From IMG/VR virus record IMGVR_UViG_3300023210_000021, positions 1 to 64,000 of that record: a stretch of 64,000 bases of DNA; one strand, given 5' to 3'. The DNA is from a virus. Positions 1,154-60,672 of the stretch are shown piece after piece. The notes under the pieces are model-generated. The model saw only the letters and a program-made list of their open reading frames with translations, did not search any database and was not told where the DNA came from. Positions within the stretch are counted from its first letter, which is position 1; every line of letters starts with the position of its first letter. The position numbers and the translations under genes were made by a program.

Positions 1154-1163
1154 TTATAAATAT
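1154..1163 (-). promoter_or_regulatory. ATATTTATAA upstream box
   Basis: The minus strand reads ATATTTATAATAAAAA, ending 14 bases before the ATG of the gene at 703-1140. The same sense-strand box recurs before many genes in this window; function not proven. Confidence 0.45.
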
Positions 1164-2873: not shown

Positions 2874-2883
2874 CAATAAATAT
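2874..2883 (-). promoter_or_regulatory. ATATTTATtG upstream box
   Basis: Sense-strand ATATTTATTG ends 1 base before the ATG of the gene at 2396-2872. It is a variant of the recurrent ATATTTATAA box. Confidence 0.35.
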
Positions 2884-5626: not shown

Positions 5627-5636
5627 ATATAAATAC
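5627..5636 (-). promoter_or_regulatory. gTATTTATAt upstream box
   Basis: Sense-strand AAGTATTTATATG lies 3 bases before the ATG of the M15 peptidase gene. It is a variant of the recurrent ATATTTATAA box. Confidence 0.4.
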
Positions 5637-5698: not shown

Positions 5699-6562
5699 TT
5701 ATTTCTCTTTTTTTTCTCTAATGATGTCCATCATTTTATTAAACTCAACTGTTTCGTTAATGTAGTTGTTAGTTTTCCCAACAACATCTGATGACTTATA
5801 GTTAGATAACTTTTTCATCATTTCTTTTGATTCATTAATTTTATTTTCATCTTTATGTAATAAAGATACTGCTTCACCAGTTTTAGAGTTACCTTCCCAT
5901 CTCACTTTATAAGTTTGGTTACCGTCAGCCATTAAAAATGTGTTGTTGTCTACCTTATAACTTTCTTTAATTAAAGACATCATGTGCTTCTCATCCTTAA
6001 ATTCCTGTTTGAAGTTTAATCTTTTCATATTACTTTCGTTTTTTGTTGTTCTTACTCTCGGTGTTTTTTGATATTCATCTTTTATCCCATCAAAGTCACC
6101 ATATTTATAATCTTTATATTCTTGTCCTTTTTCTTTTAATTCATCGTAAACATTACCTTTCTCACCTTCACCAAACCCATCATGTGTTCCAAAATCTTTA
6201 TTATATTCTGAATCATCATTAATTGCGTCAATTCTGTCCATAAATTGTTTAAAGGTTTCGGTATCATCATTGTCATACCTAAGTCCCTGCATTTTACCTG
6301 CACCTTTTGCAGCAATTTCATAACCATCTAGGTCATCTTTTCTTGTGGTTTTTGGTGGGTTCTCTAATGCGTCTTCAGATCCCTCATCAAACTTATATAA
6401 ATCTTTAAGTTTGGTGTAGGTATTCATAGCGGCATCGTTAATTTTTTTAGAATCTCTTTGTATCTTCTCTGTATAATCTAAACCCTTAGCTTTAATGTCA
6501 GCCTCATTAACGGTTTTAATCACTATATTCTTTGTTAAAAATTTCTTTCCCATTGGTCTCAT
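5699..6562 (-). CDS. unknown hydrophilic protein, likely virion-associated
   Basis: A 287-residue, very hydrophilic, lysine- and aspartate-rich protein with no membrane segment. An early TVNE-A tripeptide (about residue 19) and NESNMKRL in the middle resemble the N-terminal motifs of neighbouring capsid-targeted candidates, but here the pattern is weaker. The C-terminal half has a small beta unit (TFLMADGNQTYKVRWEG) and then helices. Function unknown. Two ATGs three codons apart are possible starts. A terminator follows the stop codon. Confidence 0.65.
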   Translation of the reverse strand: MRPMGKKFLTKNIVIKTVNEADIKAKGLDYTEKIQRDSKKINDAAMNTYTKLKDLYKFDEGSEDALENPPKTTRKDDLDGYEIAAKGAGKMQGLRYDNDDTETFKQFMDRIDAINDDSEYNKDFGTHDGFGEGEKGNVYDELKEKGQEYKDYKYGDFDGIKDEYQKTPRVRTTKNESNMKRLNFKQEFKDEKHMMSLIKESYKVDNNTFLMADGNQTYKVRWEGNSKTGEAVSLLHKDENKINESKEMMKKLSNYKSSDVVGKTNNYINETVEFNKMMDIIREKKEK

Positions 6563-6567
6563 TTCTT

Positions 6568-6577
6568 TTATAAATAC
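6568..6577 (-). promoter_or_regulatory. gTATTTATAA upstream box inside the preceding gene end
   Basis: Sense-strand GTATTTATAA lies 5 bases before the ATG of the gene at 5699-6562. It also encodes the last codons and the stop of the gene at 6568-8013 (TAT TTA TAA). Confidence 0.4.
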
Positions 6578-8013
6578 TTATTAATTAAAGAATGTACATA
6601 TTTTTTTGATTTTCCAGTCTGTTTACAAATACTTTCAATCAATTCTACATCACTATTCTCTATTGGTTTATTCTTTGTTGGTAAAATACTAATACCTTTT
6701 TTATTAAGTAATTTCTCTAATACCAATGGTAATACCGATGATATAACACCCATCGATAACACACCAAATATTTTAGCAATATCAATAGATTGTTCTTTTA
6801 AGAACCTATATTCATCTTCTGATACTTCCTTTCTCAATAATACTTTTTTTAATATTCCTGCAGCAATAGTAGTTTCTTTACCTTCTCTTTTAGCTGCACC
6901 CAAAAACTTAACCCAACTATCCTTTATTTTTTCTTTATTTTTATTAATAGATTCCAGCCCCTCTTTAAATGGTGTCTTACTCATTTCAATAGCGTTTGAA
7001 TCTTGAATACAATATGGGAATGTTTTACATTTTTCTTTTACCTTAACGAATGTACTTAAATTCTTTCCATTACCTTTATAAGTAACTTTATGGTCATTTC
7101 CTTTTCTCTGTACTGCGTTTCCCTTTTTTCCTTTTGTACCCATAAACTTATTATTACCCCAACCACCTGGTGAGTCATAAATCCCAATAGAACTACCATC
7201 TGTTGACTCTAACATCTCTTTCTTACTGAATACATTTGTTTCTTTTAATTGATTCTTCTTAAAAACCTTACCTTCACTCCTAAATGAATACATTTTACCT
7301 ATCGGTTTAGTCATACCACCAGCACTACTAACTGGTACTTTACCTTTATAAAAACTTCTCTTAATAGGTTTGCGTTTACCTCCTAGTGCACCAACAAATG
7401 CCCCGCTACCCCCAGCGGTTGATGATTCCTCTATTTCTTCCTCAAATTTAATATCTTTTTTCTTTATTCTTTTTTTATTAAATTTTTCCAAACCTTTTTC
7501 AGAAGACTTAACACCATATTTTTTATTCGTGTAGTAATCGGGAAATTCTTCAATATGATCCATAGCGATTTCCTCAGCAGTATCATCACTATTAGTATGT
7601 TCTCTCTCTATCTTCTTCCCCACTTTAATTTCGTCAACAATATCTTTAAGTCTTACGTTGTGTTTCTTTGATAACTCTTCTGTTGTTGTATCATCTGCGA
7701 CACCACCTTCAATTTTATCCTCACCTTCAAATTTTATCTTCTGTAAATCAGGTGAACCACTTAACCCAGCTTGAGTTTTAAATTCTTTACCACTAGCAGA
7801 TAAATCTTCATCTAGAACTTCTTCTCTACCAACCCTACATTTAACTTTAATGAAAGATTGTTTTAATTTATCATATTGTGAATCATCTTCACCCACCTTA
7901 TATTGTTTTATGAATTGGTTGATTACCTTAACCGCAGTTTTTAGGTGATCCCTACTCTTACATAAAGTAAGGATTGATTTTACCTTGTCGTAGTGTTCTT
8001 TTCTTTTATCCAT
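6568..8013 (-). CDS. virion-type protein with LETM1-like C-terminal membrane segment
   Basis: A 481-residue protein. The first 300 residues are polar, with a glycine/serine-rich stretch around 195-245 (GGSGAFVGALGGKRKP). Residues about 380-450 read as a basic amphipathic helix (AAGILKKVLLRKEVSEDEYR), a hydrophobic helix (IFGVLSMGVISSVLPLVLE) and then KKGISILPT. This order, with charged helix, proline-bearing membrane helix and a following I-LP motif, resembles the N-terminal part of LETM1/Mdm38-type domains and short LETM1-like phage proteins. The match is by pattern only. The C-terminus (CKQTGKSKKYVHSLINKYL) looks like a small helical tail. It ends one base past the start of nothing else but overlaps the gene upstream by one base (TAATG). 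Membrane interaction is inferred. Confidence 0.6.
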   Translation of the reverse strand: MDKRKEHYDKVKSILTLCKSRDHLKTAVKVINQFIKQYKVGEDDSQYDKLKQSFIKVKCRVGREEVLDEDLSASGKEFKTQAGLSGSPDLQKIKFEGEDKIEGGVADDTTTEELSKKHNVRLKDIVDEIKVGKKIEREHTNSDDTAEEIAMDHIEEFPDYYTNKKYGVKSSEKGLEKFNKKRIKKKDIKFEEEIEESSTAGGSGAFVGALGGKRKPIKRSFYKGKVPVSSAGGMTKPIGKMYSFRSEGKVFKKNQLKETNVFSKKEMLESTDGSSIGIYDSPGGWGNNKFMGTKGKKGNAVQRKGNDHKVTYKGNGKNLSTFVKVKEKCKTFPYCIQDSNAIEMSKTPFKEGLESINKNKEKIKDSWVKFLGAAKREGKETTIAAGILKKVLLRKEVSEDEYRFLKEQSIDIAKIFGVLSMGVISSVLPLVLEKLLNKKGISILPTKNKPIENSDVELIESICKQTGKSKKYVHSLINKYL

Positions 8014-8273
8014 TATTTAATACCACTTTTCCAGAACATTCTTCTCATCCATAATTGCTTATAGAGTTGTTCTAATACATCTTTACTTATTTTTACCACT
8101 TGTTTTTCAAACTTACTACCTTTAATTTCTTTTGCAACTATTGTAGAAACTTTTTTTTCTAAATCACTACCAAAAGATTGTTTAATCTCCTTACGGATCA
8201 TAGACTCAATCTTTTTCTCGTCAGTCTTAGTTAGAGCTTCGTTGATTATTTGTTTAAGGCGTTTTTCTTCCAT
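8013..8273 (-). CDS. small helical protein with capsid-targeting-like N-terminus
   Basis: I place the start at the ATG at 8273, giving 86 residues beginning MEEKRLKQIINEALTK. An ATG 7 codons upstream exists, but its extension (FHIFIS) is simply translation of the ATATTTATAA box found before other genes. KRLKQIINE-A matches the basic-helix plus I-x-E pattern of the packaged-protein candidates. The rest is helical and ends WMRRMFWKSGIK, a motif that looks conserved-phage in style, but I cannot name a family. The TAATG overlap couples it to the next gene. Confidence 0.7.
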   Translation of the reverse strand: MEEKRLKQIINEALTKTDEKKIESMIRKEIKQSFGSDLEKKVSTIVAKEIKGSKFEKQVVKISKDVLEQLYKQLWMRRMFWKSGIK

Positions 8274-8275
8274 AC

Positions 8276-8285
8276 TTATAAATAT
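8276..8285 (-). promoter_or_regulatory. ATATTTATAA upstream box that decides a start
   Basis: Sense-strand ATATTTATAA ends 2 bases before the ATG at 8273. It falls inside the 7-codon extension of the longer frame, which is why the shorter start is preferred. Confidence 0.45.
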
Positions 8286-11162: not shown

Positions 11163-11492
11163 TTATTTTTGTAATTTTTTTATATTGTCTTTTACAACCA
11201 TATGTAACTCCATTAATTGCTCTCCACGATTTTGTTTAGAAATGATGTAGTCATAACCCATATGTATATTTAATTTTTCTTCCCTTAAAAATTCAGGGAA
11301 ACTATCTATCTTATGTGTTTTCACTTTAACCACATTACTTAAACTATCATTTTCACTAACACATGCTATTTTAGATTTATTCAATTTTCTAATGTCTCCC
11401 GATTTCTGACAAGATCTGAAAAAGAAAATCACCATTAACCCCACTACAATATGGAATTTATATTTTTTTAAAAAATCAACAATTTTTTTCAT
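11163..11492 (-). CDS. small membrane-anchored protein
   Basis: A 109-residue protein with a basic N-terminus, a single membrane helix (about 13-26, HIVVGLMVIFFF) followed by RSCQKSGD, and a soluble, mostly helical remainder. The layout would fit a second i-spanin-like or lysis-accessory protein, or a lipoprotein-like anchor, although Cys28 is not in a lipobox. Four bases separate it from the next membrane protein, so they are cotranscribed. Upstream lie an ATATTTATAG box and the sigma-factor terminator. Confidence 0.6.
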   Translation of the reverse strand: MKKIVDFLKKYKFHIVVGLMVIFFFRSCQKSGDIRKLNKSKIACVSENDSLSNVVKVKTHKIDSFPEFLREEKLNIHMGYDYIISKQNRGEQLMELHMVVKDNIKKLQK

Positions 11493-11514: not shown

Positions 11515-11524
11515 CTATAAATAT
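11515..11524 (-). promoter_or_regulatory. ATATTTATAg upstream box
   Basis: Sense-strand ATATTTATAG lies 22 bases before the ATG of the gene at 11163-11492, just after the sigma-gene terminator. It is well placed to start the membrane/lysis operon. Confidence 0.45.
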
Positions 11525-11598: not shown

Positions 11599-12402
11599 TC
11601 ATATTAAATAATCAAATATACCACCTACATTGTGACGTATTTTCCTAATCGCACTTTCTTTAATTTGTCTAATCCTTTCTTTTGTAAGATCATATTCATC
11701 ACCAATCTGAGCCAATGTCATTGTTTCACCATGAATCCCAAAATAACAACTAACAATATTCTTCTCCCTATCAGATAACCCACACATCGCCCTTTCTAAT
11801 TGTATACCTAACGATTCATCCTCCGATAAAATTTCATCTGGACTATCAAACATATCATCTGAAATTAAATCAACTAACTCATCACCATCCTCATTAATGG
11901 GTGTAGATAGTGAGCTACAATAAGGTACTGAGATATACTCTACATCCATATCAGTAGCCTCTCTACCATTCTCCTTTTCAAACTCCTCAGTCTCTTTTCT
12001 TAACTTACTAAGCTTGTTAATCATATTGGCTGGTAATCTAACTGTCCTAGCATTTTCATTAAGACAATGTTTAATTGCTTGCTTAATCCAGTGAACAGCA
12101 TAAGAGATGAACCTGTACCCTTTGGTGTGGTCAAACTTATGTGCCGCAGTAATTAAACCATAATTACCTTCTGAGATTAAATCCGCCAGTGATACTCCTT
12201 GATTTTGGTATTGTTTAGCAATTCTAATAACAAACCTTAAATTAGCAGTAACTAACTCATTTAACGCCCTTTTATCACCATCTACAATTTTCTTAGCTAA
12301 TTCTAACTCTTTCTCTGGTGTTACCGTACTGCTCTTTCTAACATCTTTCAAATAGATAGATAAACCATCTTCTTTAGTATCAATAAATCTTTTGTTTCCC
12401 AT
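11599..12402 (-). CDS. sigma-70 family RNA polymerase sigma factor, primary type
   Basis: A 267-residue sigma factor with region 1.2 (DGLSIYLKDVRK), region 2 (ANLRFVIRIAKQYQNQGVSL, LISEGNYGLITAAHKFD, then FISYAVHWIKQAI), a region 3 helix, and region 4 with a helix-turn-helix (LAQIGDEYDLTKERIRQIKE). The order and length are those of Bacteroidota primary sigma factors (short N-terminus, no region 1.1), not of the small T4 gp55. It should direct host RNA polymerase to phage promoters, plausibly the late class; the ATATTTATAA box is a candidate target (inference). A single-gene unit ends with its own terminator. Confidence 0.92.
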   Translation of the reverse strand: MGNKRFIDTKEDGLSIYLKDVRKSSTVTPEKELELAKKIVDGDKRALNELVTANLRFVIRIAKQYQNQGVSLADLISEGNYGLITAAHKFDHTKGYRFISYAVHWIKQAIKHCLNENARTVRLPANMINKLSKLRKETEEFEKENGREATDMDVEYISVPYCSSLSTPINEDGDELVDLISDDMFDSPDEILSEDESLGIQLERAMCGLSDREKNIVSCYFGIHGETMTLAQIGDEYDLTKERIRQIKESAIRKIRHNVGGIFDYLI

Positions 12403-12417
12403 AAATCTTTTTTCTTT

Positions 12418-12906
12418 TTATTTATTTTCTGAATATTTTTTTAATAATTTTTTCTCTTTATCTGTAATATTTTTAAACCCCACATCACTTATCCTATCTA
12501 GTATATCATTTAAGTCAGGATCTGGTTCTTCTGTTCTCACTATAAACTCTGCGTCATATACCTTTTTATTCATCATCCCAATAATAGATGATGCGGTGTC
12601 TGACAATTCACCGAATAACTTTGAGTTATCAATTGGTCCACCGAACAGTTTATTCTGTAAATTCTCATCTTTAATATGTGCAGAATAAAACCCTGGAGTC
12701 ATTTCAAAAATAACATATGATTTATTTTCTTCTTTTAATAAATCTTCAATCTCTGTTAACATAAACGCACTTGTAAATGTAGCAATAATTAAAGCGCTAC
12801 CAGATAAATACGATACTTCTGTCTCTGATATAACATCTAAAAGTTTAGTGACATCAGAAATATCACCTAACCCTATAATGCAATAACTCTTAATCATTGG
12901 TTCCAT
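12418..12906 (-). CDS. unknown protein with DUF6576-like C-terminal helix pair
   Basis: A 162-residue protein. The N-terminal part looks like a small alpha/beta fold (SYCIIGLGDISDVTKLLD, then ALIIATFTSAFML and SYVIFEMTPGFYSAHI). The C-terminus, ILDRISDVGFKNITDKEKK, resembles the short helical repeat (ILDKIS-G-LT-EEK-FL) found at the ends of some Bacteroidota membrane proteins (DUF6576). That resemblance is by eye. No catalytic motif. It lies between gp46 and the sigma gene, with an ATATTTATAA box upstream. Confidence 0.6.
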   Translation of the reverse strand: MEPMIKSYCIIGLGDISDVTKLLDVISETEVSYLSGSALIIATFTSAFMLTEIEDLLKEENKSYVIFEMTPGFYSAHIKDENLQNKLFGGPIDNSKLFGELSDTASSIIGMMNKKVYDAEFIVRTEEPDPDLNDILDRISDVGFKNITDKEKKLLKKYSENK

Positions 12907-12917
12907 ATACTTTTTTA

Positions 12918-12927
12918 TTATAAATAT
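12918..12927 (-). promoter_or_regulatory. ATATTTATAA upstream box
   Basis: Sense-strand ATATTTATAATAAAAAA ends 11 bases before the ATG at 12906, nearly identical over 16 bases to the box before the gene at 703-1140. Confidence 0.45.
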
Positions 12928-18041: not shown

Positions 18042-18051
18042 ATATTTATTA
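18042..18051 (+). promoter_or_regulatory. ATATTTATTA box for the + strand island
   Basis: ATATTTATTA lies in the + orientation 29 bases before the ATG at 18081, with a second related stretch (ATTATTTATATTAA) nearer the start. It shows that the recurrent box follows gene direction, not the genome strand. Confidence 0.4.
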
Positions 18052-18081
18052 CAAAGATATATTATTTATATTAAACAACAA
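18052..18081 (-). promoter_or_regulatory. Bacteroidota-type promoter for the PD-(D/E)XK nuclease
   Basis: On the minus strand, TTG (18081-18079), a 19-base spacer and TATCTTTG (18059-18052) match the Bacteroidota TTG/TAnnTTTG consensus, 18 bases before the ATG at 18033. The element overlaps the first base of the divergent + strand gene. Confidence 0.6.
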
Positions 18082-19040
18082 TGAAAAAAACAATAAAAAA
18101 AATATTAAAAGAAGAAATCAGTAACGGATATACTAGATTTGAGTTGTTAGTTTTACAGTGGATTTATAAAGAACATAAAGGTGATCTTTTTGATTTTTCT
18201 TTCACAAACTATAAACCACTATTTAGGAAAATAAAATCCAATTTTGGGTTATCCAATAAAGAGATGATAAAAATAATTACTCTTTATAAAGATAATTACA
18301 CCACTGGTGGGTTTCATATGAGAGATGATGTTATAAGAACCCCTCTAAAAAAATATGATCTTGGTTTTGTTTATGATTACAGCTCTTATCAAACTAACAG
18401 TTATGTGGTTTGGGGTGTTGATGAAGATGAGGCATTTGAATTTGCTATTGCTAGTGAGGATAGTGGTGAATTTGTGGAAAGTTTTATCGAAGGGGAAATA
18501 GAAAATAGTGTTAATAGAGGTGATCATTTTGACACCACGTTCGAAGAGATAAATGAAACTATAAAAAAAGAATTAAATCTTTTAAAAGAGGAAAGAAATA
18601 AAAAACTTACAGATAAGTTTCTAATTGTTACTTTCAAAATATTAGATAAATGGATGCAAGGTGAAGGGCATGATATTGATGAGGTTGAAACAGATGTTGG
18701 TGTTTATGAGCAAATAATTAAAGTTGTGAAAGTATCACTTGGTATTGTGGGTCAAGAAGATATTGATTTCATTGTTGCATCATTTGTTTTGAATTACATG
18801 ACTGATGGGGATTGGGATCTTTTAAAAGAAATCGGAGTTAAAGAACCACAAATAAAGAAATGGGAGTTATCAAAAACATATGGTATACGTGCTTACGTAA
18901 CCGATATCGTTAGAAATGTAGAAGGTTATTTACCATCCGAAATGATGTACGCTGAATGGGATGCTGGGTATGACTGGGATCGATATGATATGGACATCCA
19001 AGATTACTTTGATGAGGAGTTAGATATCACAGAAGTTTGA
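18081..19040 (+). CDS. unknown + strand protein with capsid-targeting-like N-terminus
   Basis: A 319-residue acidic protein starting MKKTIKKILKEEISNG, a short basic helix ending I-L-K-E. The next gene starts almost the same way (MKKLIRKILKEEV). The N-terminal third is helical (FELLVLQWIYKEHKGDLFDF) and the middle contains a beta unit (YVVWGVDEDEAFEFAIAS). No known catalytic motif was recognised. I infer a head-packaged protein by analogy with the other candidates. It forms a two-gene operon with the following gene (TGATG overlap), opposite in direction to everything around it. Confidence 0.7.
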   Translation: MKKTIKKILKEEISNGYTRFELLVLQWIYKEHKGDLFDFSFTNYKPLFRKIKSNFGLSNKEMIKIITLYKDNYTTGGFHMRDDVIRTPLKKYDLGFVYDYSSYQTNSYVVWGVDEDEAFEFAIASEDSGEFVESFIEGEIENSVNRGDHFDTTFEEINETIKKELNLLKEERNKKLTDKFLIVTFKILDKWMQGEGHDIDEVETDVGVYEQIIKVVKVSLGIVGQEDIDFIVASFVLNYMTDGDWDLLKEIGVKEPQIKKWELSKTYGIRAYVTDIVRNVEGYLPSEMMYAEWDAGYDWDRYDMDIQDYFDEELDITEV

Positions 19041-19972
19041 TGAAAAAATTAATTAGGAAAATATTAAAGGAAGAAGTTGATCGTTCTGACATCATTTATG
19101 ATAAGAATGGTAATGTTTTTAAAACTGTAATGAAAATTTTAGATAAGAAGTATAGAATTTATATACCCAAATATTTCAAACCTTCAATCGGAAGAGGATG
19201 GGATATCGAAGGTATTGGTGAAGGTGGTAGTCGATATGATGTTAGTGATTGGGATGTAGAAAGATTTCTTGGGAATGAATTAGGTTTTGATGACGAACAA
19301 TTGGAATTCTTATATAAAAGTTGGGTTATTATATTTCTCGATAAACATAAAGAAGAGTTAGATTTGAATGAAAATGATTTAGAATATTATGGTGTAAATG
19401 ATGCAGATCCATCCAATGATGAATATAAAATAGGTTTAAAAGAAGATATCCCAATTTATAAAGAGGTTAACCCACATAAAAAAGTATTCAGTAGATTAAA
19501 AAAACAATTCCCAAATACACCTGATTATGTCTTACAAGATTTCTTCAGAGCACAATTTATTAAATCACCTAAAAACCTATCAATGGTTATTGATCAATAT
19601 GATGGGGATCCAATTCCGGCAATGGGTAGTTATTGGCATGAGTTCTTAAATGGGCCTTGGAAATTAGAATTATTAAATGTTAATCCTGATGACTTTAGTG
19701 ATACTACATTAAACGCTTTCTTTGAAAGGGAGTTTGGTGAAGTAGATTCTTATGATGTCCCTTATGATGAAAAGAGAATGAGAGTTCAAAAAAGTTTGGC
19801 TAAAGGTAAAGGAATGAATGAACCAGTTATTATTGTAAGAGATAAGAATGGTAAATATGAGTTAATAGAAGGGTGGCATCGCACAATGTCAGCATTATTA
19901 TTGGGTGACAATGGTGAGGATTTCATTAACTGGGATAAGGTAAAAATAAGAGCCTTCATTAAAAACGCTTAG
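19040..19972 (+). CDS. ParB/sulfiredoxin-like domain protein with capsid-targeting-like N-terminus
   Basis: A 310-residue protein if the ATG at 19040 (overlapping the previous TGA) is used; a TTG one codon earlier is less likely. Residues 1-13 (MKKLIRKILKEEV) match the basic-helix/I-x-K-E pattern of the packaged-protein candidates. The C-terminal 60 residues contain EPVIIVRDKNGKYELIEGWH, then RTMSALL and KIRAFI. This is the order of the ParB/Srx-like fold: strand, G-(W/N)-H-R and helix. The family includes nucleases, kinases and NTP-dependent switches, so the activity cannot be assigned. The middle is helical, with no known domain seen. Confidence 0.75.
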   Translation: MKKLIRKILKEEVDRSDIIYDKNGNVFKTVMKILDKKYRIYIPKYFKPSIGRGWDIEGIGEGGSRYDVSDWDVERFLGNELGFDDEQLEFLYKSWVIIFLDKHKEELDLNENDLEYYGVNDADPSNDEYKIGLKEDIPIYKEVNPHKKVFSRLKKQFPNTPDYVLQDFFRAQFIKSPKNLSMVIDQYDGDPIPAMGSYWHEFLNGPWKLELLNVNPDDFSDTTLNAFFEREFGEVDSYDVPYDEKRMRVQKSLAKGKGMNEPVIIVRDKNGKYELIEGWHRTMSALLLGDNGEDFINWDKVKIRAFIKNA

Positions 19973-20791: not shown

Positions 20792-20823
20792 CAAAGGTAA
20801 GTAATGTTTTTGGATTATAACAA
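20792..20823 (-). promoter_or_regulatory. Bacteroidota-type promoter for the cREC gene
   Basis: On the minus strand TTG (20823-20821), a 21-base spacer and TACCTTTG (20799-20792) fit the Bacteroidota consensus. Only 4 bases separate it from the ATG at 20787, so the message may be nearly leaderless. The upstream half overlaps the 3' end of the primase gene. Confidence 0.55.
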
Positions 20824-21756
20824 ACTTTCTTTAATTTTTTTTGCTGATTGTAGTATTTTTACCACACCTTTCTTACCAATCTTCTGATAAACATCGGAAA
20901 TATCATACCCATCAGGCATCTTAACAACCATAACTCTATTGTGTAACTTACTACTATTCAGTCGTTTATATAATTTAACCGAATCTCTATAAGCATCTGA
21001 ATCTAAAACAATTACAACCTTTGCGGTTAGCTTGGTTAATAATTCTTCTAATATGTGATCATTTAAAACTTTTCCTAACAATGGAATACTATTAGGTATT
21101 GGAATGTGATCAAATACACCCTCCACTATATAAACATTACTATCCCAATTAATTTTTTCTTCGTTGAATATAATGTCCATCTTAGATACCTCTGGGTTTT
21201 TGTATTTCATTTTACTCCAACCATAACTTCTACCTAAATAATAATTTATGTCCCCATTTTTGTCATAACTTGGGACAATGATTCTACCTGCATAATCACC
21301 ATCTGTACAATACCCAAGATTAAACTTATTGATTAAGTCTAAACCAATATTCCTCTTTTTAAGGTAACCTATTGCCTTCTCATAATCATAACTACCATTG
21401 TCAGTAGATAGTGGTTTAAACTCCTTCGGTAACCCCCCTATGACAGCCTCGTTATCTTCTCTATCCTTTGCAACATATGGGTTGACAAGGTTATACCGTT
21501 TAAGGTGTCCTTTATTCCCATAATTTCTAATAAGTTTTCTGATTGTTCCATGCGTTCCATTTACTTCACCACACGACCAACATTTGTAAACACTTAATCC
21601 ATAGTTAACTTCAAGGTTACCTTTTCCATCACCAGACATCATGTTTTTTTCCATAGAACATTCAGGGCAATCAAATGAAATTTGACCCCTATCTTCATAA
21701 TGTTTCTTATGTTCACCAAGAAAATCTTCTAATATTTCTACCACCAACTCAGACAT
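20815..21756 (-). CDS. 61: DnaG-type primase (T4 gp61-like)
   Basis: A 313-residue primase. The N-terminal zinc-binding domain has CPEC (C30, C33) and CWSC (C59, C62). The Toprim domain follows, with VYIVEGVFD near residue 210 and VIVLDSDAYRD near 250, the acidic residues expected for metal binding. The middle segment (YAGRIIVPSYDKNGDINYYL) is the usual RNA-polymerase core start. It should make RNA primers for lagging-strand synthesis together with the gp41-type helicase encoded at 51978-53381. Its length is close to T4 gp61 (342). Confidence 0.92.
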   Translation of the reverse strand: MSELVVEILEDFLGEHKKHYEDRGQISFDCPECSMEKNMMSGDGKGNLEVNYGLSVYKCWSCGEVNGTHGTIRKLIRNYGNKGHLKRYNLVNPYVAKDREDNEAVIGGLPKEFKPLSTDNGSYDYEKAIGYLKKRNIGLDLINKFNLGYCTDGDYAGRIIVPSYDKNGDINYYLGRSYGWSKMKYKNPEVSKMDIIFNEEKINWDSNVYIVEGVFDHIPIPNSIPLLGKVLNDHILEELLTKLTAKVVIVLDSDAYRDSVKLYKRLNSSKLHNRVMVVKMPDGYDISDVYQKIGKKGVVKILQSAKKIKESLL

Positions 21757-23789: not shown

Positions 23790-25994
23790 TTAAAAGTCCA
23801 TAGTTATTTCAATTGTGGCTGTACTACTATTGGCAATTTTAATTGGTCTTGACAATTTAGCAATCATTACTACATTTTGATTATTATCTAATATACCAAC
23901 CTCACTTACGAATCTATCCCCACCTGTTGTATATGTTGGGTTACTACTACTTCCAAACTCCGCTCCATCTATATTAACACTAAATAATGTTTTATAAACA
24001 GTAGCACCAATGTAAGTTCTAAGGTTACCAAAGAATAATCTTTCATCACCAAAGTTCATTTTATTGTAAAATGTTCCTTGTGGTAAATCTATAAAACTAC
24101 CTAAGTTAAATGTGGTTGCCCCAGTGTAGGTTGATCCTTCCAATATAAACCCAGTTATTGTTGAGTTTTGATTTTGTAACAATAATGGATCAATTGTTTC
24201 CCCACTATTTGTTGTGATATTTGTTGACGTGAAGTCTATCTCTCTCCATAATTTAGGGTCTGGTCTATCAGTAAGTTTAGGATCAACAACTTGCGCCAAT
24301 ACTTTAAATTCATTAGCGTAGAATCCTTTTCCATCATAACCAACAGATTCTACCTTTCTCATATATGGTAGTTGATCCACATTAGCTAACCTAAACTGAA
24401 CATCTTTATCTGATGCGGTTTGATTATCTAAAACACTGTACCTCTGACAAGGTAATGTATTTGTTACCCCTGAATTAGCTGACATATAGTATGTAAGGTA
24501 TATTCTTTCACCAGCTTTTAATGTACCAGTACACTCTCCATTTACTGGTGATGTTAATTCTGACTTTAAATCTGGTAAAGTCCAATTTCTGTTTGACTTA
24601 TATGACATCGCAGCTAATAGTTCTTCATTATCAACAACAACAATCTTTTCGTTAGGGAATACTTTACCAACAGCCAATGGGGTACTAGGTGTAACCGACA
24701 TTCCACTATATTCAATTAAATCGTAATATACTATATTTGTATTTTCTAAAGTCTTTTCCGTTGTGTCAGATAAAAATCTCATACCCATTGTTGTCCCACT
24801 AGCTGTTCCAACATCATTTTTTCTATGCCACATTACTGGAATATCTAAATTTAATAGTTTTCCTGATTCCCCATCAATGTGGAAAAATTCACCATAGAAA
24901 TTAGAGATACAACTATTAGTGTAATGTATTATCGATATACCTTTTTGGAATGGGTCAATGTAACTAGACGCAGATTCTTTAAGTGCTTGTGTTACTTCTG
25001 GTGTATTTTTGTAATTTAAAAGTAATTTCGTTCCTACGAATTCTTCTGACCCAAACAATTGGTGATCATGATAATAATCTGTTGTGTCTTTAAACTGACC
25101 CGCCATATTCTCACACCAAGGATTGTTCATATTCCAAACAGGAATATTATCCACACATATGTCACAACTACTATCAAACGATAAAGTACCTGTGTGCCAA
25201 TATGATGTTAATGAGCTTTCCCCATAATAATCATCTGCTGGGTCATTACCACCAGGGATTACATAATAACTAATAATCGTTCCACTATCAGCGGTAAAGT
25301 TAGGTAATGCTCTATCCACATTAACTGTTGACCCACTATCTTCTAAATTAGTAATCATATAGTATTGTGACATTGAAGGTGTTGTCTCCGTTGTTGTTCC
25401 CGTAAGGTTACCTAATGTAGAATTACTTAAATTTAAAACCATTATATCATTAACACTAGACGCTGTTAAAGGTGTAGATAATCTTAACACCCCTTTTGTA
25501 AAGGTTGTGGTATCGGTTTCACCACTAAACGCAGATAAATCAATAGACCCACTCTCTTTAATAAATTGTGTTGTTGTTTGTGCTGTCAAACCTAATGATG
25601 CGGTTGACCCTGAGAAAAATCCTCTGTCATCAGCTTTATTACTAATAATACCTTTTACTAATTTAACATTACTTTCACCACCAAATTGTTGTATAAAGCT
25701 CCCTTCAGTACCCAATAAAAATGATTTTGGGTAATATTGTTTATCTTTAGGTCTTAATACCGCAGAGTAATTAACCTCTGTTCCACCAGTATTAATATTA
25801 AAAAAGAATTGTCCTGTTGTCGCACTACTACTAGGTACGAAATCTTTCCAACCCTTAACATAACTATAATCCACTTCTGAATCACCCGCTACCCAAGAGT
25901 TAAACGTTAATTGACCTTTGGCAAGTAACTCCCTACCTATATCGGTAAGTTTTGTCCTTACTAATGCTGTTCTGTGTTTATTTATGTAACTCAT
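23790..25994 (-). CDS. tail fibre or collar-type structural protein (paralogue 2)
   Basis: A 734-residue Thr/Ser-rich protein, longer paralogue of the preceding entry. It shares the N-terminal LTDIGRELLAKGQLTFNSWV, then GDSEVDY block, and the C-terminal SEVGILDNNQ block, with about 650 residues of different sequence between. The central part holds several Cys (SSCDICVDN, NPWCENMAG). It is likely a fibre or tail-surface protein; receptor contact is possible. It has an ATATTTATAA box 21 bases upstream and a 48-base gap to the large protein before it. Confidence 0.75.
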   Translation of the reverse strand: MSYINKHRTALVRTKLTDIGRELLAKGQLTFNSWVAGDSEVDYSYVKGWKDFVPSSSATTGQFFFNINTGGTEVNYSAVLRPKDKQYYPKSFLLGTEGSFIQQFGGESNVKLVKGIISNKADDRGFFSGSTASLGLTAQTTTQFIKESGSIDLSAFSGETDTTTFTKGVLRLSTPLTASSVNDIMVLNLSNSTLGNLTGTTTETTPSMSQYYMITNLEDSGSTVNVDRALPNFTADSGTIISYYVIPGGNDPADDYYGESSLTSYWHTGTLSFDSSCDICVDNIPVWNMNNPWCENMAGQFKDTTDYYHDHQLFGSEEFVGTKLLLNYKNTPEVTQALKESASSYIDPFQKGISIIHYTNSCISNFYGEFFHIDGESGKLLNLDIPVMWHRKNDVGTASGTTMGMRFLSDTTEKTLENTNIVYYDLIEYSGMSVTPSTPLAVGKVFPNEKIVVVDNEELLAAMSYKSNRNWTLPDLKSELTSPVNGECTGTLKAGERIYLTYYMSANSGVTNTLPCQRYSVLDNQTASDKDVQFRLANVDQLPYMRKVESVGYDGKGFYANEFKVLAQVVDPKLTDRPDPKLWREIDFTSTNITTNSGETIDPLLLQNQNSTITGFILEGSTYTGATTFNLGSFIDLPQGTFYNKMNFGDERLFFGNLRTYIGATVYKTLFSVNIDGAEFGSSSNPTYTTGGDRFVSEVGILDNNQNVVMIAKLSRPIKIANSSTATIEITMDF

Positions 25995-26015: not shown

Positions 26016-26025
26016 TTATAAATAT
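26016..26025 (-). promoter_or_regulatory. ATATTTATAA upstream box
   Basis: Sense-strand ATATTTATAATAAAAT ends 21 bases before the ATG at 25994, in a 48-base gap between two tail genes. Confidence 0.45.
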
Positions 26026-26042
26026 ACTCAATGTAAATATTA

Positions 26043-28901
26043 TCAATACGAATTTAATGCATTCGTAGTTATTTCTATCGGTGTAGTCTCACTAATTCTC
26101 TCCGATTTTATGATGTCCCCATTTAATGTGGTATATCTCTTCTCGTTTTTTACCCTATAAATGAATTTATCACCAAACGTTCCACCACTTAATGTTACAC
26201 CAGCATTATAAGATCTTTGACCTACAACATAGTCGGTAGTGCCGCTATATAATATATTATTAAATGACGTATCATCTCCACCTACAAATTCCACAATAAA
26301 AGTACCTGTTTGCCCACATACAGGGGCATTACTGATTGTCCAACCTATAATGGGTGAAATAGTTGTAATTGGACCAATTACCGAAGCTTCAGGAACATAG
26401 AAGGCTTGAATAGTGTCACCAATTTTAATTGGTACATCTAATATTGATCGTTTTTTATTAGTTATAGATTTATAATACTCAACATTATTTACCAATATAG
26501 CACCATTCACTGTGAGTGCGATATCACCACTGGTAGGTGTGTCAGTATAAAACTCGTATTTATTAAAATCAGTGTTATAATAAATTTTATCTGTTAGTTT
26601 TTCACTGTTAGTTGTCCCACTATTTATTGTACTCACCAATAATTTATCAATATAAGCGCTACTACCACCGCCGCCATCTACATAAACTATAGTAACTAAT
26701 TGGTTATCTAATACTTCAAAATTAAACACTAACTGCCTTATTGTAATAGTATAATCAATATCCTTTGATAATACTGATCCATTATAACTAATTATTTGAT
26801 CTCCATTACTTACACTTAACGTATAACCAGTTATACCTGATGTGGTATAAAAACTATTAACATTTAAAGTACCAATAGGTTCTGTATTAGCATTAATTTT
26901 ACTGGTTAGTGTAGGAACGTCTGCCCTATACATATTTAAAAAATACCAATCAGTAATGGGGTTATATAACCCATATAAATCACCTTTTTTACGAGTATCA
27001 ATTGTATTATATCTATAACCTAATTGTTTACCAACAAATGTGTTTATTGGGTATTCGTAATAACCTTTTATAATAAACTCACCTTCACCAATACCATTTA
27101 CGTTAATTGTTGTTGTGTTGGCGGTTGTAAACGAACTATATGGTATTGTTTGAGAACTATAAACAGCGTTTGTTGTGAACCCGCTGTTTGCGCTGTTGTA
27201 TTTATATATTTCACTATAAAAATTTAATTCTTTATCCCCTATAACCCCAGTAACATCATTAATAGTATATTCAAAATTAAAATTATCAGAACCCGTTTCT
27301 CTTATATACGCGTACCTGTCACAAGATAAAATTGTATTGTTTATTTGGTTAGGTAACCCCCATTGGGATGTCGTACCACTTAGAAGTTTTACACTATCCT
27401 CATCGAAATTACAATTAACACCTAACCCATTAGGGTAGTGAATTACATGTAATGTATCATTATCAAAATTACTAACATATATTTTTTCATCTGGACCCAT
27501 TTGTAATGATCCGTTAGTGTTACCTGTGATATCAGCAACTATAATAGAGTAATCTACCATATCGGTTGACGATGAATAAGATAAATCGAATTGATAAATT
27601 TTACCTTGAGCCCCATCTGAAATATATAATTTAGAAGAGTCCGAAGAAAATTCTACACCATAAGGTCCGTTATCAAATGTAAATCCAGTAATTGTTATTA
27701 AATTACTTAATGTACCCGCAGATGAGGTGAAATCCATTATATCTATAATATCTTCATCATATATTGCATTGACTATTTTACTTGCATCGTGTGAAACTTT
27801 TAAATACCCTCTTGGAGTATTATTTACACTACCAATATTAGTTACCACAGGTGGTGATATTCCACCCGATGTTATTTTATAACTATAAAATATACTATCA
27901 CCAGTTTTATGTGTGATAGCCCAATAATCAATACCATTACTATGTTTGGCACCAGCTACTTTTTCTGTAAGTCCGCTAGATAATAAATCAATATTTTTTG
28001 TTTGTACCTGTCCGTTACCACCCTGTAAAGACATGTCAACAACTGAATAACTAAATCCGTTGTTGGCGCCATCATAATTTGTGGTAAAAACGTAATATTG
28101 ATTTGTGGTTGGTCTTGGTACAATAAGTGATGATTGTGTTGACCCTGTATTACCATTTAATCCAGTACCATTTGTCATTATTGTATTTGCGCTAGTATAA
28201 ATTGTTTCACCATCACTATAAAATAATAGGTCACCTTCTGTATTTGATATTACAGATGAACCTTCAGTTGATACAACACTACCACTAATCGATGTTGGTG
28301 TTGCTCCACTTTCGATAGGGTTGAAGTTTATCCCCGCATTAATTCCAAAAAACCAATTATAATTACTTCTATTAGATGACTCAGATTCTGGTCCACATAT
28401 TGTTTCACCAGTTAATGGTATTTTTCTAGCACCCCTAACAGAAAATTCAGGATAATCAAAACCATCAATATCACTTCTAGTTATTGTAGTAAATAATTCT
28501 GTATTACTTCTAGGTAACCACCCAAAATTATTACTTTCATTCCTTACACCTGTTTGATAGTAATCATCACCACCATCTATATACCTTAATGTGTGATTTG
28601 CGTCTACTGTATACCCACTTAACACACTACCTGTGTTTCCTGTCATTACGTATGTTATAACGGGTTCATCCTTTATTGTATCAAAAATCCTTAACCCACT
28701 AAATAAAGGTAATGGTTTAGGTAAGATAACAGGTGTTTTTGATAAATCAGTCATAAACCAAGTACCATTAAAAACCTGTATAAACTCGCCCCTATTATAT
28801 TGTGAATATATAGTGGGTGCGAAATCAGATTGTGATTCATACTCTGTAATCACATTTATACTAGTTTCTAATATTTTTATATTACCTGACGCTGATGCCA
28901 T
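26043..28901 (-). CDS. tail/adhesion protein with Bacteroidota surface-type beta-propeller
   Basis: A 952-residue beta-rich protein. Residues about 184-525 form a repeat domain with FGINAGINFNP, NTEGDLLFYSDGETIY, STQSSLIVPRPTTNQYYVF, SYSVVDMSLQGG, LYISDGAQGKIYQFDLS and YVSNFDNDTLHVIH. This is the pattern of beta-propellers found in large secreted Bacteroidota proteins, often next to PKD domains and type-9 sorting tails. The flanking regions are phage-like and Ser/Thr-rich. It probably projects from the tail and touches the host surface. The domain looks captured from a host-type gene (inference). Confidence 0.75.
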   Translation of the reverse strand: MASASGNIKILETSINVITEYESQSDFAPTIYSQYNRGEFIQVFNGTWFMTDLSKTPVILPKPLPLFSGLRIFDTIKDEPVITYVMTGNTGSVLSGYTVDANHTLRYIDGGDDYYQTGVRNESNNFGWLPRSNTELFTTITRSDIDGFDYPEFSVRGARKIPLTGETICGPESESSNRSNYNWFFGINAGINFNPIESGATPTSISGSVVSTEGSSVISNTEGDLLFYSDGETIYTSANTIMTNGTGLNGNTGSTQSSLIVPRPTTNQYYVFTTNYDGANNGFSYSVVDMSLQGGNGQVQTKNIDLLSSGLTEKVAGAKHSNGIDYWAITHKTGDSIFYSYKITSGGISPPVVTNIGSVNNTPRGYLKVSHDASKIVNAIYDEDIIDIMDFTSSAGTLSNLITITGFTFDNGPYGVEFSSDSSKLYISDGAQGKIYQFDLSYSSSTDMVDYSIIVADITGNTNGSLQMGPDEKIYVSNFDNDTLHVIHYPNGLGVNCNFDEDSVKLLSGTTSQWGLPNQINNTILSCDRYAYIRETGSDNFNFEYTINDVTGVIGDKELNFYSEIYKYNSANSGFTTNAVYSSQTIPYSSFTTANTTTINVNGIGEGEFIIKGYYEYPINTFVGKQLGYRYNTIDTRKKGDLYGLYNPITDWYFLNMYRADVPTLTSKINANTEPIGTLNVNSFYTTSGITGYTLSVSNGDQIISYNGSVLSKDIDYTITIRQLVFNFEVLDNQLVTIVYVDGGGGSSAYIDKLLVSTINSGTTNSEKLTDKIYYNTDFNKYEFYTDTPTSGDIALTVNGAILVNNVEYYKSITNKKRSILDVPIKIGDTIQAFYVPEASVIGPITTISPIIGWTISNAPVCGQTGTFIVEFVGGDDTSFNNILYSGTTDYVVGQRSYNAGVTLSGGTFGDKFIYRVKNEKRYTTLNGDIIKSERISETTPIEITTNALNSY

Positions 28902-28910
28902 ATCTTTTTA

Positions 28911-28920
28911 TTATAAATAT
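28911..28920 (-). promoter_or_regulatory. ATATTTATAA upstream box
   Basis: Sense-strand ATATTTATAATAAAAAG ends 9 bases before the ATG at 28901. It is the same 16-base form as before the genes at 703-1140 and 12418-12906. Confidence 0.5.
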
Positions 28921-47714: not shown

Positions 47715-48095
47715 TTAGAATGTTATATCGATAGTATCAGTAGATGAAAATACACCTTCGGTTATAGTATAAGAAAGTATTACCTTTATCGCCTCTTCTA
47801 CTTCTATATTCTCAAAAGTGATACTATCAATCTGTAGGTTTGGAATATATTTCTTTATTGTGTCATTTAAATTAGTTTTGATTTCTTCATGAGTAATTTG
47901 ATCATTCATTTCAAAAATGAATTTCTTTAAATCACTACCGAAATCTGGCATATACAACCTTTCACCTTTATTAGTTAATAAAAGGTGTAATAAATCAGCC
48001 TTTATTGCGTCTTTTGATGTAGAGGTTATGTCAACATAGAACCCTTCGTCACTATCCTTAAAAGGGAAGTTTATATTTATATATTTAGAAGGCAT
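47715..48095 (-). CDS. 25: baseplate wedge protein gp25-like
   Basis: I use the ATG at 48095 (start MPSKYININFPF), giving 126 residues. A GTG 8 codons upstream lies inside the neighbouring endonuclease remnant and is less likely. The protein has the GPW/gp25 pattern: DAIKADLLHLLLTNKGERLY, then PDFGSDLKKFIFE, and a C-terminal beta domain. T4 gp25 is 132 residues. It should form the inner baseplate ring with gp6. The 3' end of the remnant at 48085-48330 overlaps this start by 11 bases. Confidence 0.88.
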   Translation of the reverse strand: MPSKYININFPFKDSDEGFYVDITSTSKDAIKADLLHLLLTNKGERLYMPDFGSDLKKFIFEMNDQITHEEIKTNLNDTIKKYIPNLQIDSITFENIEVEEAIKVILSYTITEGVFSSTDTIDITF

Positions 48096-48330
48096 TTTTA
48101 TATTTCCATTTAAACCCACATGTGGTTTTTATTAACCCATCACGCATCATTATAATATTTTTTTTATTTTTTGTTTCTTCACTATGTTTTTCACCTACTC
48201 TATAAGTATTACCAATACTTATTTTACCTAAGCTATATTTAGGTTTTTTAGTGGTATTATCAATATACCTAACATTAGATATATCACCATTAGAAACTAA
48301 ACTATAAATATTAATATACTTTTCTTCCAT
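48085..48330 (-). pseudogene. miniature GIY-YIG homing endonuclease remnant with NUMOD3-like motif
   Basis: An 81-codon frame. INIYSLVSNGD, then NVRYIDNTTKK, resembles the GIY-YIG core (xIYxL ... RYIGxT) with Asp in place of the last Gly. VGEKHSEETKNKK matches the NUMOD3 DNA-binding motif (G-x-HSEETK-K). CGFKWKYKNA is the GFxWKY tail common in phage endonucleases. The linker that should carry the catalytic Arg and Glu is missing, so an internal deletion is likely. It lies between the nrdB terminator and gp25, a typical freestanding homing-endonuclease position. It could still be a translated small protein. Confidence 0.6.
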
Positions 48331-48333
48331 TAC

Positions 48334-48343
48334 TTATAAATAT
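48334..48343 (-). promoter_or_regulatory. ATATTTATAA upstream box
   Basis: Sense-strand ATATTTATAA ends 3 bases before the ATG at 48330, upstream of the endonuclease remnant and the gp25-gp6 genes. It is a candidate start of the tail operon. Confidence 0.45.
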
Positions 48344-51977: not shown

Positions 51978-53381
51978 TTACCCCTGTTTGTTTTTCTTAG
52001 CCATTCTAGCGTCTCTTTTATTCAACGCATCAACCACTAAATTTGATCTTTTTTGATCCTCACCTTTTTCAAATTGTAAAAATGAAACATCACTAGTATC
52101 TTCAGTATCAATAACTAATGTACCATTATCAAAAACAATATCTTCGAATATAATACCATCTTTACCAAACCTAGATTTAAGTATCGCCATAGTTGCTCTA
52201 CCTTCCTCTTTTTGTTCTAGTGTTTTTGCGACAGACATAATAAAGTGACCAATTTGTCCTTTCTTAATAGAACCACCAATCATATCAGCTTCAACTACAT
52301 TAGCACCTATCGAACTTCTATTACCCTGTATAGCTGTCCAACCAGCAATATCTAATTCAGAAATCATAGTTTCAAATTGTCTCATAATTGGACCTTCTCC
52401 AGAATATTCATCCCTATATTGTTTTGTACTCTCCACACAATCAATGTAATCTAAGAATAAGATATCGGGTTTATTACCCAATGACGTTAGTTTTCTTAAA
52501 TATTGTTTAATATGTGGGATGGTTGTTCCATCACTAGGCATCTTCTTTAATATAAGACTACCCTTTTGTCTGTCCTGAAATTTAGCAATTGCGGTTCTTA
52601 CCTCATCTTTTCTTTCAGTCAACTCATTCAATGAAATCTCTGACCAACAAGTATAATGTTTTCTCTGAATAACCTTTGGGTTATCTTCAAAGAATATTTG
52701 TACCACATTATAACCTAAGTTATATGCTGTATTCGCCATTCTAGTAACTAATGTAGTTTTACCCACACCGAATGGTGCTAGAATCACACCTAGTTCTCCT
52801 TTTGATAATCCTCCATCCATTAAGTTATCTAACCCCACTAACCCTGTTGGTATAGGTTTTCTGAAATCATCAGACAACACATCCTCAACTGCGTGAAATA
52901 CATCGATACCACTATCGGCTTCTGTACCAACAGAAAGAGCATCTTTCATAATTTCTTCACATTCATCATAACGATCGAAGTCACCTGACTCCATAATTTT
53001 CTGAATTTTCTGTGTAGCCTTTTTCAACTCTTGTTGTTTGCAAAATTGTATCGCTGTATCTTGAATGTGGAAACAATCTTTATTATCAGTGTTTTGAATC
53101 TCCTCAATCATAGCCATTGCAGATTCTCTTGCAATTTCTCGCTTGATATCTTTATTAACTAATTGTTTGATTGTATCATATATCGGAATTGTCTCATACT
53201 TTTCGTGATAGTCTTTAACACTCGCAATCAATAACCTTAAATATTCATTATCAAAATATTGTGGGTCAAGAATATCAATTATACCCTCTGAAAACTTAAC
53301 GTCTTCCACTACCTGTTTAGCTAACTTTACCTGAAAACCATACCCTAAAAAACCTAAGTTTTTACTTTCTTTTTTCGCCAT
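51978..53381 (-). CDS. 41: replicative helicase, DnaB/T4 gp41 type
   Basis: A 467-residue RecA-fold helicase. Walker A is in LGVILAPFGVGKTTLVTRMA (about 195-213) and Walker B in DILFLDYIDCV. The downstream AIQGNRSS and GHFIMSVAKT strands are typical of DnaB-like motor domains. The N-terminal 150 residues are helical, as in gp41. It should unwind DNA at the fork and work with the primase at 20815-21756. T4 gp41 is 475 residues. A TTATAAATAA variant of the recurrent box lies 17 bases upstream. Confidence 0.92.
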   Translation of the reverse strand: MAKKESKNLGFLGYGFQVKLAKQVVEDVKFSEGIIDILDPQYFDNEYLRLLIASVKDYHEKYETIPIYDTIKQLVNKDIKREIARESAMAMIEEIQNTDNKDCFHIQDTAIQFCKQQELKKATQKIQKIMESGDFDRYDECEEIMKDALSVGTEADSGIDVFHAVEDVLSDDFRKPIPTGLVGLDNLMDGGLSKGELGVILAPFGVGKTTLVTRMANTAYNLGYNVVQIFFEDNPKVIQRKHYTCWSEISLNELTERKDEVRTAIAKFQDRQKGSLILKKMPSDGTTIPHIKQYLRKLTSLGNKPDILFLDYIDCVESTKQYRDEYSGEGPIMRQFETMISELDIAGWTAIQGNRSSIGANVVEADMIGGSIKKGQIGHFIMSVAKTLEQKEEGRATMAILKSRFGKDGIIFEDIVFDNGTLVIDTEDTSDVSFLQFEKGEDQKRSNLVVDALNKRDARMAKKNKQG

Positions 53382-53398: not shown

Positions 53399-53408
53399 TT
53401 ATAAATAA
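53399..53408 (-). promoter_or_regulatory. tTATTTATAA upstream box
   Basis: Sense-strand GATATTTATTTATAACAA lies 17 bases before the ATG of the helicase gene. This shows the box is not restricted to virion genes. Confidence 0.35.
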
Positions 53409-59654: not shown

Positions 59655-59665
59655 CTAATAAATAT
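59655..59665 (-). promoter_or_regulatory. ATATTTATTA upstream box
   Basis: Sense-strand ATATTTATTAG lies 27 bases before the ATG at 59627. It is a variant of the recurrent box and a candidate start of the 59627-57101 operon. Confidence 0.35.
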
Positions 59666-59672
59666 ACGATTA

Positions 59673-60077
59673 TTAAGAAAAAACACGTTTAATGTTATTA
59701 ACAACTAAACCTTCTTTGTTGGTTAATATCATTTTGTTTTGAAATTTTTCCCAATCAATCTGGTAATTTTTATGTTCTATGTTACCACTATCTAAATTAT
59801 GTTCACGTTCAATTAGGCTATTAAGTGCATTGATTGTGTAGAAACACTCACCTTTTTTATGTACAATAATTGTGGTAGGGTAGATACTTTTTAAATCCAC
59901 TCTTTTTCCATTTTTAAGAAATACCTTGTATGTTACTATATTTTGGGTTGGTTCATCTTCATTTTTATATACGAAAATTCTATCCCTATTCATTTTGAAC
60001 CTTTTAATTAAATAGTCCAAAAACGTCTCTAATCTCTCTGTGGAGACGAAAGACGCTAAAATTATACTTCTATCCAT
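59673..60077 (-). CDS. unknown alpha/beta protein
   Basis: A 134-residue basic protein with strands (RIFVYKNEDEPTQNIVTYKV, TTIIVHKKGECFYTINALN) and a helix (LETFLDYLIKRFKMN). No family was recognised and no catalytic motif is visible. It overlaps the gene at 60070-60672 by 8 bases, so expression is coupled. Confidence 0.65.
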   Translation of the reverse strand: MDRSIILASFVSTERLETFLDYLIKRFKMNRDRIFVYKNEDEPTQNIVTYKVFLKNGKRVDLKSIYPTTIIVHKKGECFYTINALNSLIEREHNLDSGNIEHKNYQIDWEKFQNKMILTNKEGLVVNNIKRVFS

Positions 60078-60672
60078 TACTCTCTATATCACATAAATAA
60101 GGTAAAAACCTAACCTTATTGTTTATTTTTGTCATTATATTCTTATACTTATTAAATATTTCTGTGTCCATCAAAAGACACCCTGACAAATTACGCAATT
60201 TAGTTATTACCCTATTCGGTTCGATACCGAGATACTCTACCACATCTAAATCAATACCAAAAATCATACCCTCAGCATACAGATACACCATTCTGTCGTT
60301 GTGGATATAAAGTTTAGGATTTTTTAGTGAGTAAATTTTTCTTAAAATTTTATTTATTTTTTTTCTTGAATCATGAATAATATCAACATAAATGTAATGG
60401 ATTTCGTCACCGATTCTATTGTAACTGTTGTATATAAATTTTTTTACATCCTTTTCATAATCAACCCTTCTTTCTTTGGGGGAGAATGTCCAACAGGTTG
60501 TTGGACTAATTTCCTTATGGAGTATGGATACCTCATCACCATACAACTCCTTTGTCTTATCCCAACCAACTATAAGTGTGGGTAAACCCTCAATAATGGT
60601 TTCTACCTTTCTACACACCTTAAAATTAGGATCTTCTATTTTTGACGTTGTGACTATGTTTCCAATATACAT
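60070..60672 (-). CDS. unknown conserved-looking protein
   Basis: I start this gene at the ATG at 60672 (MYIGNIV; 200 residues). A GTG two codons upstream is possible, but it overlaps a TATATTTG promoter box. The protein has an alpha/beta N-terminus (TLIVGWDKTKELYGDEVSIL, CWTFSPKERRVDYEKD) and a more helical C-terminus (VEYLGIEPNRVITKLRNL). The family is not recognised. Its own host-type -7 box suggests early or constitutive expression. Confidence 0.65.
   Translation of the reverse strand: MYIGNIVTTSKIEDPNFKVCRKVETIIEGLPTLIVGWDKTKELYGDEVSILHKEISPTTCWTFSPKERRVDYEKDVKKFIYNSYNRIGDEIHYIYVDIIHDSRKKINKILRKIYSLKNPKLYIHNDRMVYLYAEGMIFGIDLDVVEYLGIEPNRVITKLRNLSGCLLMDTEIFNKYKNIMTKINNKVRFLPYLCDIESNG

Follow-up and report, generated by a model that had tools for sequence, protein, structure and literature searches.

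The window and the box

The window, that is, the whole stretch of 64,000 bases analysed here, comprises bases 1-64000 of an 83,832-base IMG/VR virus record (83.8 kb). It encodes several T4-type proteins, namely, UvsX, a gp41-type helicase, gp25, and the gp6 baseplate wedge, and the tail sheath and tube are encoded in the other 19.8 kb of the record, outside the window. Neither a terminase nor a major capsid gene was recognised among the record's proteins looked at; the record is therefore probably a fragment. A 20-kb part of the window gave no match to phage records by megablast, and relatives of the phage were identified via protein comparison. By UvsX, the nearest cultured relative is Flavobacterium phage immuto (41% identity).

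The initial annotation listed 13 genes of the window as preceded by a recurrent box, ATATTTATAA, and a box is present in front of all 13. The exact 10-mer, however, stands at only six of them (genes starting at 1140, 8273, 12906, 25994, 28901, and 48330), and the other seven carry variants with one or two mismatches. Exact and variant boxes have the core TATTTAT in common, and their consensus is ATATTTATAnnnAAA. The distance from the end of the box to the ATG is 1 to 29 nt, as had been proposed. The boxes are as follows, with positions of the first T of TATTTAT given relative to the ATG.

28911..28920, minus strand: exact box ATATTTATAA of gene 26043-28901; first T 18 nt before the ATG
1154..1163, minus strand: exact box of gene 703-1140; first T at -22
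2874..2883, minus strand: variant ATATTTATTG of gene 2396-2872; first T at -10, the closest of all
5627..5636, minus strand: variant GTATTTATAT of gene 4628-5623; first T at -12; predicted leaderless class
6568..6577, minus strand: variant GTATTTATAA of gene 5699-6562; first T at -14
8276..8285, minus strand: exact box of gene 8013-8273; first T at -11; predicted leaderless class
11515..11524, minus strand: variant ATATTTATAG of gene 11163-11492; first T at -31
12918..12927, minus strand: exact box of gene 12418-12906, with the gene for an RpoD-like sigma factor next downstream; first T at -20
18042..18051, plus strand: variant ATATTTATTA of gene 18081-19040; first T at -38, and a second TATTTATA at -18
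26016..26025, minus strand: exact box of gene 23790-25994; first T at -30
48334..48343, minus strand: exact box of ORF 48085-48330, which heads the gp25/gp6 baseplate genes; first T at -12
53399..53408, minus strand: variant TTATTTATAA, overlapping a second TATTTATT, of the gp41-type helicase gene 51978-53381
59656..59665, minus strand: variant ATATTTATTA of ORF 59439-59627; first T at -37

The two remaining exact copies of ATATTTATAA lie within genes, at 6101 and 9922. The box also occurs in the last 19.8 kb of the record, before the genes starting at 69324, 72272, 75458, 77687, and 78264.

Enrichment and orientation of the box

In the window as a whole, the exact 10-mer is only slightly over-represented (8 copies, where shuffling predicts 2.1 and a count of 8 was reached in 1 of 100 shuffles), but its position upstream of genes is strongly non-random. 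Sense-strand space within 50 nt upstream of gene starts makes up 2.3% of the window and holds 6 of the 8 exact copies (P 3.6e-9), 12 of 27 copies of TATTTATA (P 2e-13), and 19 of 59 copies of TATTTAT (P 3e-17). In the antisense control, few box-type copies were found upstream of the window's genes. TATTTAT is the top upstream 7-mer of the record, preceding 23 of 74 genes against 1.45 expected, and TATTTATA and its one-base shift ATATTTAT occur 17 and 18 times, respectively, upstream of the record's genes. The 56 letter permutations of T5A3 average 1.8 upstream occurrences in the 83.8-kb record, which places the box approximately tenfold above them.

The same orientation was found in the relatives. 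The sense:antisense ratio of ATATTTAT is 18:2 in the record, 19:1 in immuto, and 18-19:2 in the Microcystis phage Mel-JY01; that of TATTTATA is 18:4, 24:6, and 13:2, respectively. The top upstream 7-mer of immuto is ATATTTA (39 sense versus 4 antisense), and the top upstream 8-mer of Mel-JY01 is ATATTTAT. As a control, upstream motifs were counted in the same way in 49 kb of late genes of T4, which recovered TATAAATA (12 sense versus 5 antisense), the mirror image of the result for the phages studied here.

The box is real, sense-oriented, and non-random. That it is a by-product of AT-rich intergenic sequence can practically be discounted: the upstream regions are indeed 76% A+T and a simple count over the window exceeds the shuffles only slightly, but 8-mers of equal composition are about ten times rarer upstream, few copies appear in the antisense control, and distant genomes have the motif in the same orientation, so that the permutation and antisense controls refute this explanation.

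A promoter rather than a translation signal

The position of the box relative to operons was then compared among the phages. In the record, the box precedes none of the 24 genes that adjoin or overlap their predecessor, compared with 19 of the 36 genes that follow a gap of more than 20 nt; in immuto, the corresponding numbers are 1 of 92 genes without an intergenic gap and 26 of 87 genes with a gap of more than 20 nt. A terminator-like hairpin with a T-run, read from the sequence, stands directly before the boxes of the genes starting at 1140, 5623, and 77687.

The initial annotation had offered two readings, a late promoter of leaderless messages and a translation-initiation element in a host without Shine-Dalgarno use. 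The second would agree with the near absence of Shine-Dalgarno-like sequences from the window's phage (1 of 71 genes) and with the A-run after the box, which fits the A-rich, Kozak-like start context of Flavobacterium (PMC6847099). However, the box shows neither a fixed spacing to start codons nor a presence inside operons, and it follows terminators. Mel-JY01 provides a further test. Shine-Dalgarno-like sequences are found in 29% of its genes versus 4% in the record and in immuto, its median distance from box to ATG is 41 nt, and in 14 of its 20 box genes a separate Shine-Dalgarno sequence lies between the box and the start codon. The operon-gap and Mel-JY01 comparisons thus reject a translation element, which we regard as highly improbable. 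The box stays with the transcription start while the translation signal varies. Because it follows terminators, is missing from all 24 abutting genes, and recurs on structural genes of immuto and Mel-JY01, the box is a promoter, not a translation signal, and the evidence favours the first of the two readings.

Two distance classes and predicted leaderless starts

We pooled 2167 distinct upstream regions from the window's phage, immuto, and relatives and measured the offset from the first T of the motif to the A of the ATG. The offsets of TATTTATA were bimodal, with 29 in a peak at 11-13 nt, 9 in a trough at 14-17 nt, and 101 in a broad peak at 19-26 nt; tested against uniform spacing, the near peak (11-13 nt) gave P 2e-7 and the trough (14-17 nt) P 7e-7. 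Neither the reverse complement nor a permuted control showed this shape in the pooled upstreams. The host element TAnnTTTG had an equal shape, peaking at 12-13 nt (27 at 11-13 nt and 4 at 14-20 nt). In F. johnsoniae transcripts, the first T of TAnnTTTG, the -7 element, lies at -12 (PMC6847099), and TA-like signals about 12 bp upstream have been read as marks of leaderless bacterial genes (PMC3160421). A -10-like signal at this distance is what we found before part of the phage genes. The likeness to those bacterial genes lies in where the signal stands with respect to the start codon; here, by contrast, the signal is phage-specific and forms one class of a bimodal distribution.

Since TAnnTTTG shares the 12-13 peak and has its first T at -12, we predict that RNA starts 12 nt after the first T of the box. 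The pooled box sites have a conserved A at box +11/+12, and the start should fall on this A. At an offset of 12, the predicted start is therefore the A of the ATG itself, which defines the leaderless class, and in the other class the start should lie 7-14 nt before the ATG. For approximately one gene in seven, the box is near enough to the start codon for the ATG itself to be the probable 5' end of the messenger. In the host species F. psychrophilum, leaderless messages make up 5.5% and the median leader is 24 nt (PMC9723704).

The concern that closely spaced boxes would place the transcription start inside the gene assumed E. coli geometry. With the first T at -12, as in Flavobacterium, boxes 3-4 nt before the ATG would start RNA on or next to the A of the ATG; the concern holds clearly only for the box of the gene starting at 2872 (first T at -10), for which the predicted start falls inside the codon and which may not have a working transcription start. 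The gp25 orthologues, in which the start codon is fixed by the conserved N-terminus, include both classes: the box lies at 11-15 in one clade and at 20-39 in others.

Two genes of the window have predicted leaderless promoters of the host type, in contrast to the box.

20815..21756, minus strand: primase gene with host-type TATATTTG; first T at -13
60070..60672, minus strand: 200-aa gene with host-type TATATTTG; first T at -13

The host-type element stands at 12-14 in 7 of 14 distinct primase upstreams. For the 200-aa gene it stands at 12-13 in 18 of 22 distinct orthologue upstreams, with one more at 59.

Comparison with the host promoter

The Bacteroidota sigma-A promoter (-33 TTTG, -7 TAnnTTTG) resembles the box in that about 12 nt separate its first T from the start site and in having a leaderless subset with equal spacing. 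Host sigma-A could in principle read the box as a variant -7 element with no phage factor, given that TATTTATA has the TA and two further T positions of TAnnTTTG and shares its 12-nt geometry to the ATG. However, the nearly invariant G at -5 is missing from the box, and the pooled box sites show no -33 element, whereas the host-type sites show one. Box and host-type elements also stand on different genes, and the same box occurs in the Microcystis phage, whose host is of a different kind. We therefore consider a reading by host sigma-A improbable. As in T4-type late promoters, recognition appears confined to a -10-like 8-mer without a -35 element. A weak, clade-specific upstream bias was seen at gp25 promoters only: in one clade (gp25 upstreams, L094-L169), the box is preceded at a distance of about 29 nt by another conserved stretch, TATTTACTtataaaaa, and this stretch may represent an additional upstream element or reflect shared ancestry.

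Genes under the box

The box sites of immuto include those of the tail sheath, tail tube, gp20, tape measure, and tail spike. Within this genome, boxes are concentrated in the structural half (P 0.0045) and host-type elements in the other half (P 0.0016). As expected of a T4-type late promoter, the box precedes late structural genes (region tests, P 0.0045 and 0.0097), with lateness judged from gene content. The description of the box as "late" is mostly borne out by these structural genes, but it does not extend to a virion-only regulon, because the gp41-type helicase orthologues have the box in 40 of 57 upstreams; the regulon thus comprises late genes and at least one replication gene. Of five distinct upstreams of orthologues of gene 23790-25994, four retain the box.

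The small genes of immuto at 66-75 kb have host-type TATNTTTAG after GTTG instead of the box. About 15 small genes there (L007 16811-24128; record 66.8-74.1 kb) have a near-identical early promoter and leader, GTTG...TATNTTTAGGTATCAATAATTAAAAC. In Mel-JY01, small genes (L347 30242, 31040, and 43487) have in common a leader that resembles ACAACCTAACAGGA before the ATG; this is a distinct conserved element whose end is Shine-Dalgarno-like.

ORF 48085-48330, which lies between the box and gp25, encodes 81 amino acids with similarity to the N-terminal part of a longer GIY-YIG-like endonuclease that occupies the same place in a relative (L015 17990-18709). It is possibly a remnant of a homing endonuclease that was inserted behind the late promoter.

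Two phage sigma factors as candidate readers

One candidate for a phage factor that reads the box is encoded in the window.

11599..12402, minus strand: RpoD-like sigma factor with regions 1.2, 2, and 4 and a weak region 3; rival candidate reader

The second candidate is a gp55-like family of about 240 amino acids, found in immuto (gp118, annotated as hypothetical), in five large relatives, one of which has a UvsX 76% identical to that of the window's phage, and in Mel-JY01 (HMM E 1.5e-31). Profile-profile comparison with the T4 gp55 family by hhalign gave E 1.3e-5 at a probability of only 81%. An AlphaFold model, built on an alignment of relatives other than immuto, is of middling confidence (pLDDT 72, pTM 0.42). 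Plain Foldseek with this model gave no E below 0.05; VIA-align, run after it, gave as the best match gp55 of the T4 late open complex 7d7c (7d7c_F) with Z 10.7, 3.0 Å, and 104 residues, where a Z of about 10 is not rare for helical proteins, and almost all others among the matches listed were sigma factors. The gp55-like profile found a chance match only in a PDB sequence search. Because phrog_234 (T4 late sigma) gave only marginal matches to the gp55-like proteins and an HMM of the T4 gp55 family, used directly, gave none in immuto or Mel-JY01, the kinship with gp55 rests on the profile-profile and fold comparisons, by which the relatives' protein has both a sigma region 2 fold and a sequence relationship to the gp55 family.

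The gp55-like gene was not found in the 83.8-kb record of the window, and a wider gp55 profile revealed no weak copy there either. Its neighbour in one relative (G008) is also missing from the record, as it is from every other tested IMG/VR record without the gp55-like gene. The absence is therefore probably due to record incompleteness, and we infer that the window's phage carries the gene on the missing part.

The strongest competing explanation is that the box is a phage promoter read by the RpoD-like sigma (11599-12402) rather than by the gp55-like protein. The RpoD-like gene is present in the window's record and in 19 of 19 IMG/VR relatives tested, and host-type elements lie upstream of it in relatives (8 of 30 upstreams), as for an early or middle regulator. 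However, no RpoD-like sigma was detectable in immuto or Mel-JY01, which share the box, and the box lacks a -33 element although the RpoD-like sigma has region 4. Since these two box phages have only the gp55-like protein, it is the likelier reader, and the RpoD-like sigma remains an unlikely contender. By co-occurrence and homology, the gp55-like sigma is most likely the reader of the box. All 19 tested IMG/VR relatives keep the RpoD-like sigma, even though the gp55-like sigma seems to be the one to which the late box belongs.

Proposed mechanism and comparison with T4-type late transcription

We propose that the box would be the -10-like element of a phage-specific promoter class in a group of T4-related myoviruses of Bacteroidota, driving mainly late, virion-structure genes. 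Host RNA polymerase would carry a phage sigma distantly related to T4 gp55 and would recognise the box alone, without a -33/-35 element. RNA would start about 12 nt downstream of the box's first T, on an A; where this is the A of the ATG, the message would be leaderless, and elsewhere the leader would usually be 7-14 nt. We put the probability of this proposal as a whole, a phage late-promoter class read by a gp55-like sigma and with a leaderless subset, at roughly 77%. It builds on the enrichment, the orientation, the placement at operon heads, the distance classes, the missing upstream element, and the co-occurrence with the gp55-like protein.

The system would be a new form of T4-type late transcription. 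Like the T4 late promoter (TATAAATA, read by gp55), the box is a single 8-bp -10-like element without an upstream element that stands before structural genes, and in relatives it is accompanied by a gp55-like sigma with T4 gp55 as its best structural match. The box was described earlier as the reverse complement of TATAAATA, which is literally correct; compared in the same sense, TATTTATA and TATAAATA are identical at 6 of 8 positions and differ by two central A to T changes, and the box is thus not the T4 consensus in sense orientation. In addition, leaders here are predicted to be much shorter than in T4, with some messages leaderless, and the gp55-like protein, at about 240 amino acids, has an extra C-terminal part. 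T4-type late promoters are activated by the gp45 sliding clamp through gp33 and gp55; PF02916 detected no gp45-type clamp in 13 records.

The T4-like cyanophage and vibriophage systems of S-PM2 and KVP40 likewise combine a phage-specific late box with a gp55 homologue in distant hosts (PMC2988020), but the T4 consensus is closely kept there, unlike in the present group, and the host of immuto is a Bacteroidota bacterium. Our literature searches yielded neither a description of the box in Flavobacterium phages nor a paper that names Mel-JY01. A more specific view, to which we give somewhat less than even odds, is that these phages form a separate gp55-type branch with a TATTTATA-reading and probably clamp-free sigma, in which some virion genes are expressed from leaderless messages in Bacteroidota (gp25 in some relatives would be an example) and leaders of about 2-5 nt are avoided.

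The proposal would supply a promoter code for a large and almost unstudied group of Bacteroidota myoviruses and would extend gp55-type late transcription to hosts whose sigma-A is very different and which do not use Shine-Dalgarno sequences. Leaderless translation in Bacteroidota would become testable with phage genes; the published share of leaderless messages is only 5.5% in F. psychrophilum (PMC9723704). The cultured phages immuto and Mel-JY01 open all of these points to experiment.

Shared N-termini of phage proteins

Several otherwise unrelated proteins have in common an N-terminal stretch like MKRIVRLTENDLTRIVRKVIKEQ or MKKLIRKILKEE that ends in hydrophobic-x-E. In the window, these are encoded at 4628-5623, 57101-57664, 58432-59439, 703-1140, 18081-19040, and 19040-19972, and in relatives at L189 5519-5911 and L172 18145-18606. 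Such N-termini resemble the T4 capsid-targeting peptides that are cut by the prohead protease.
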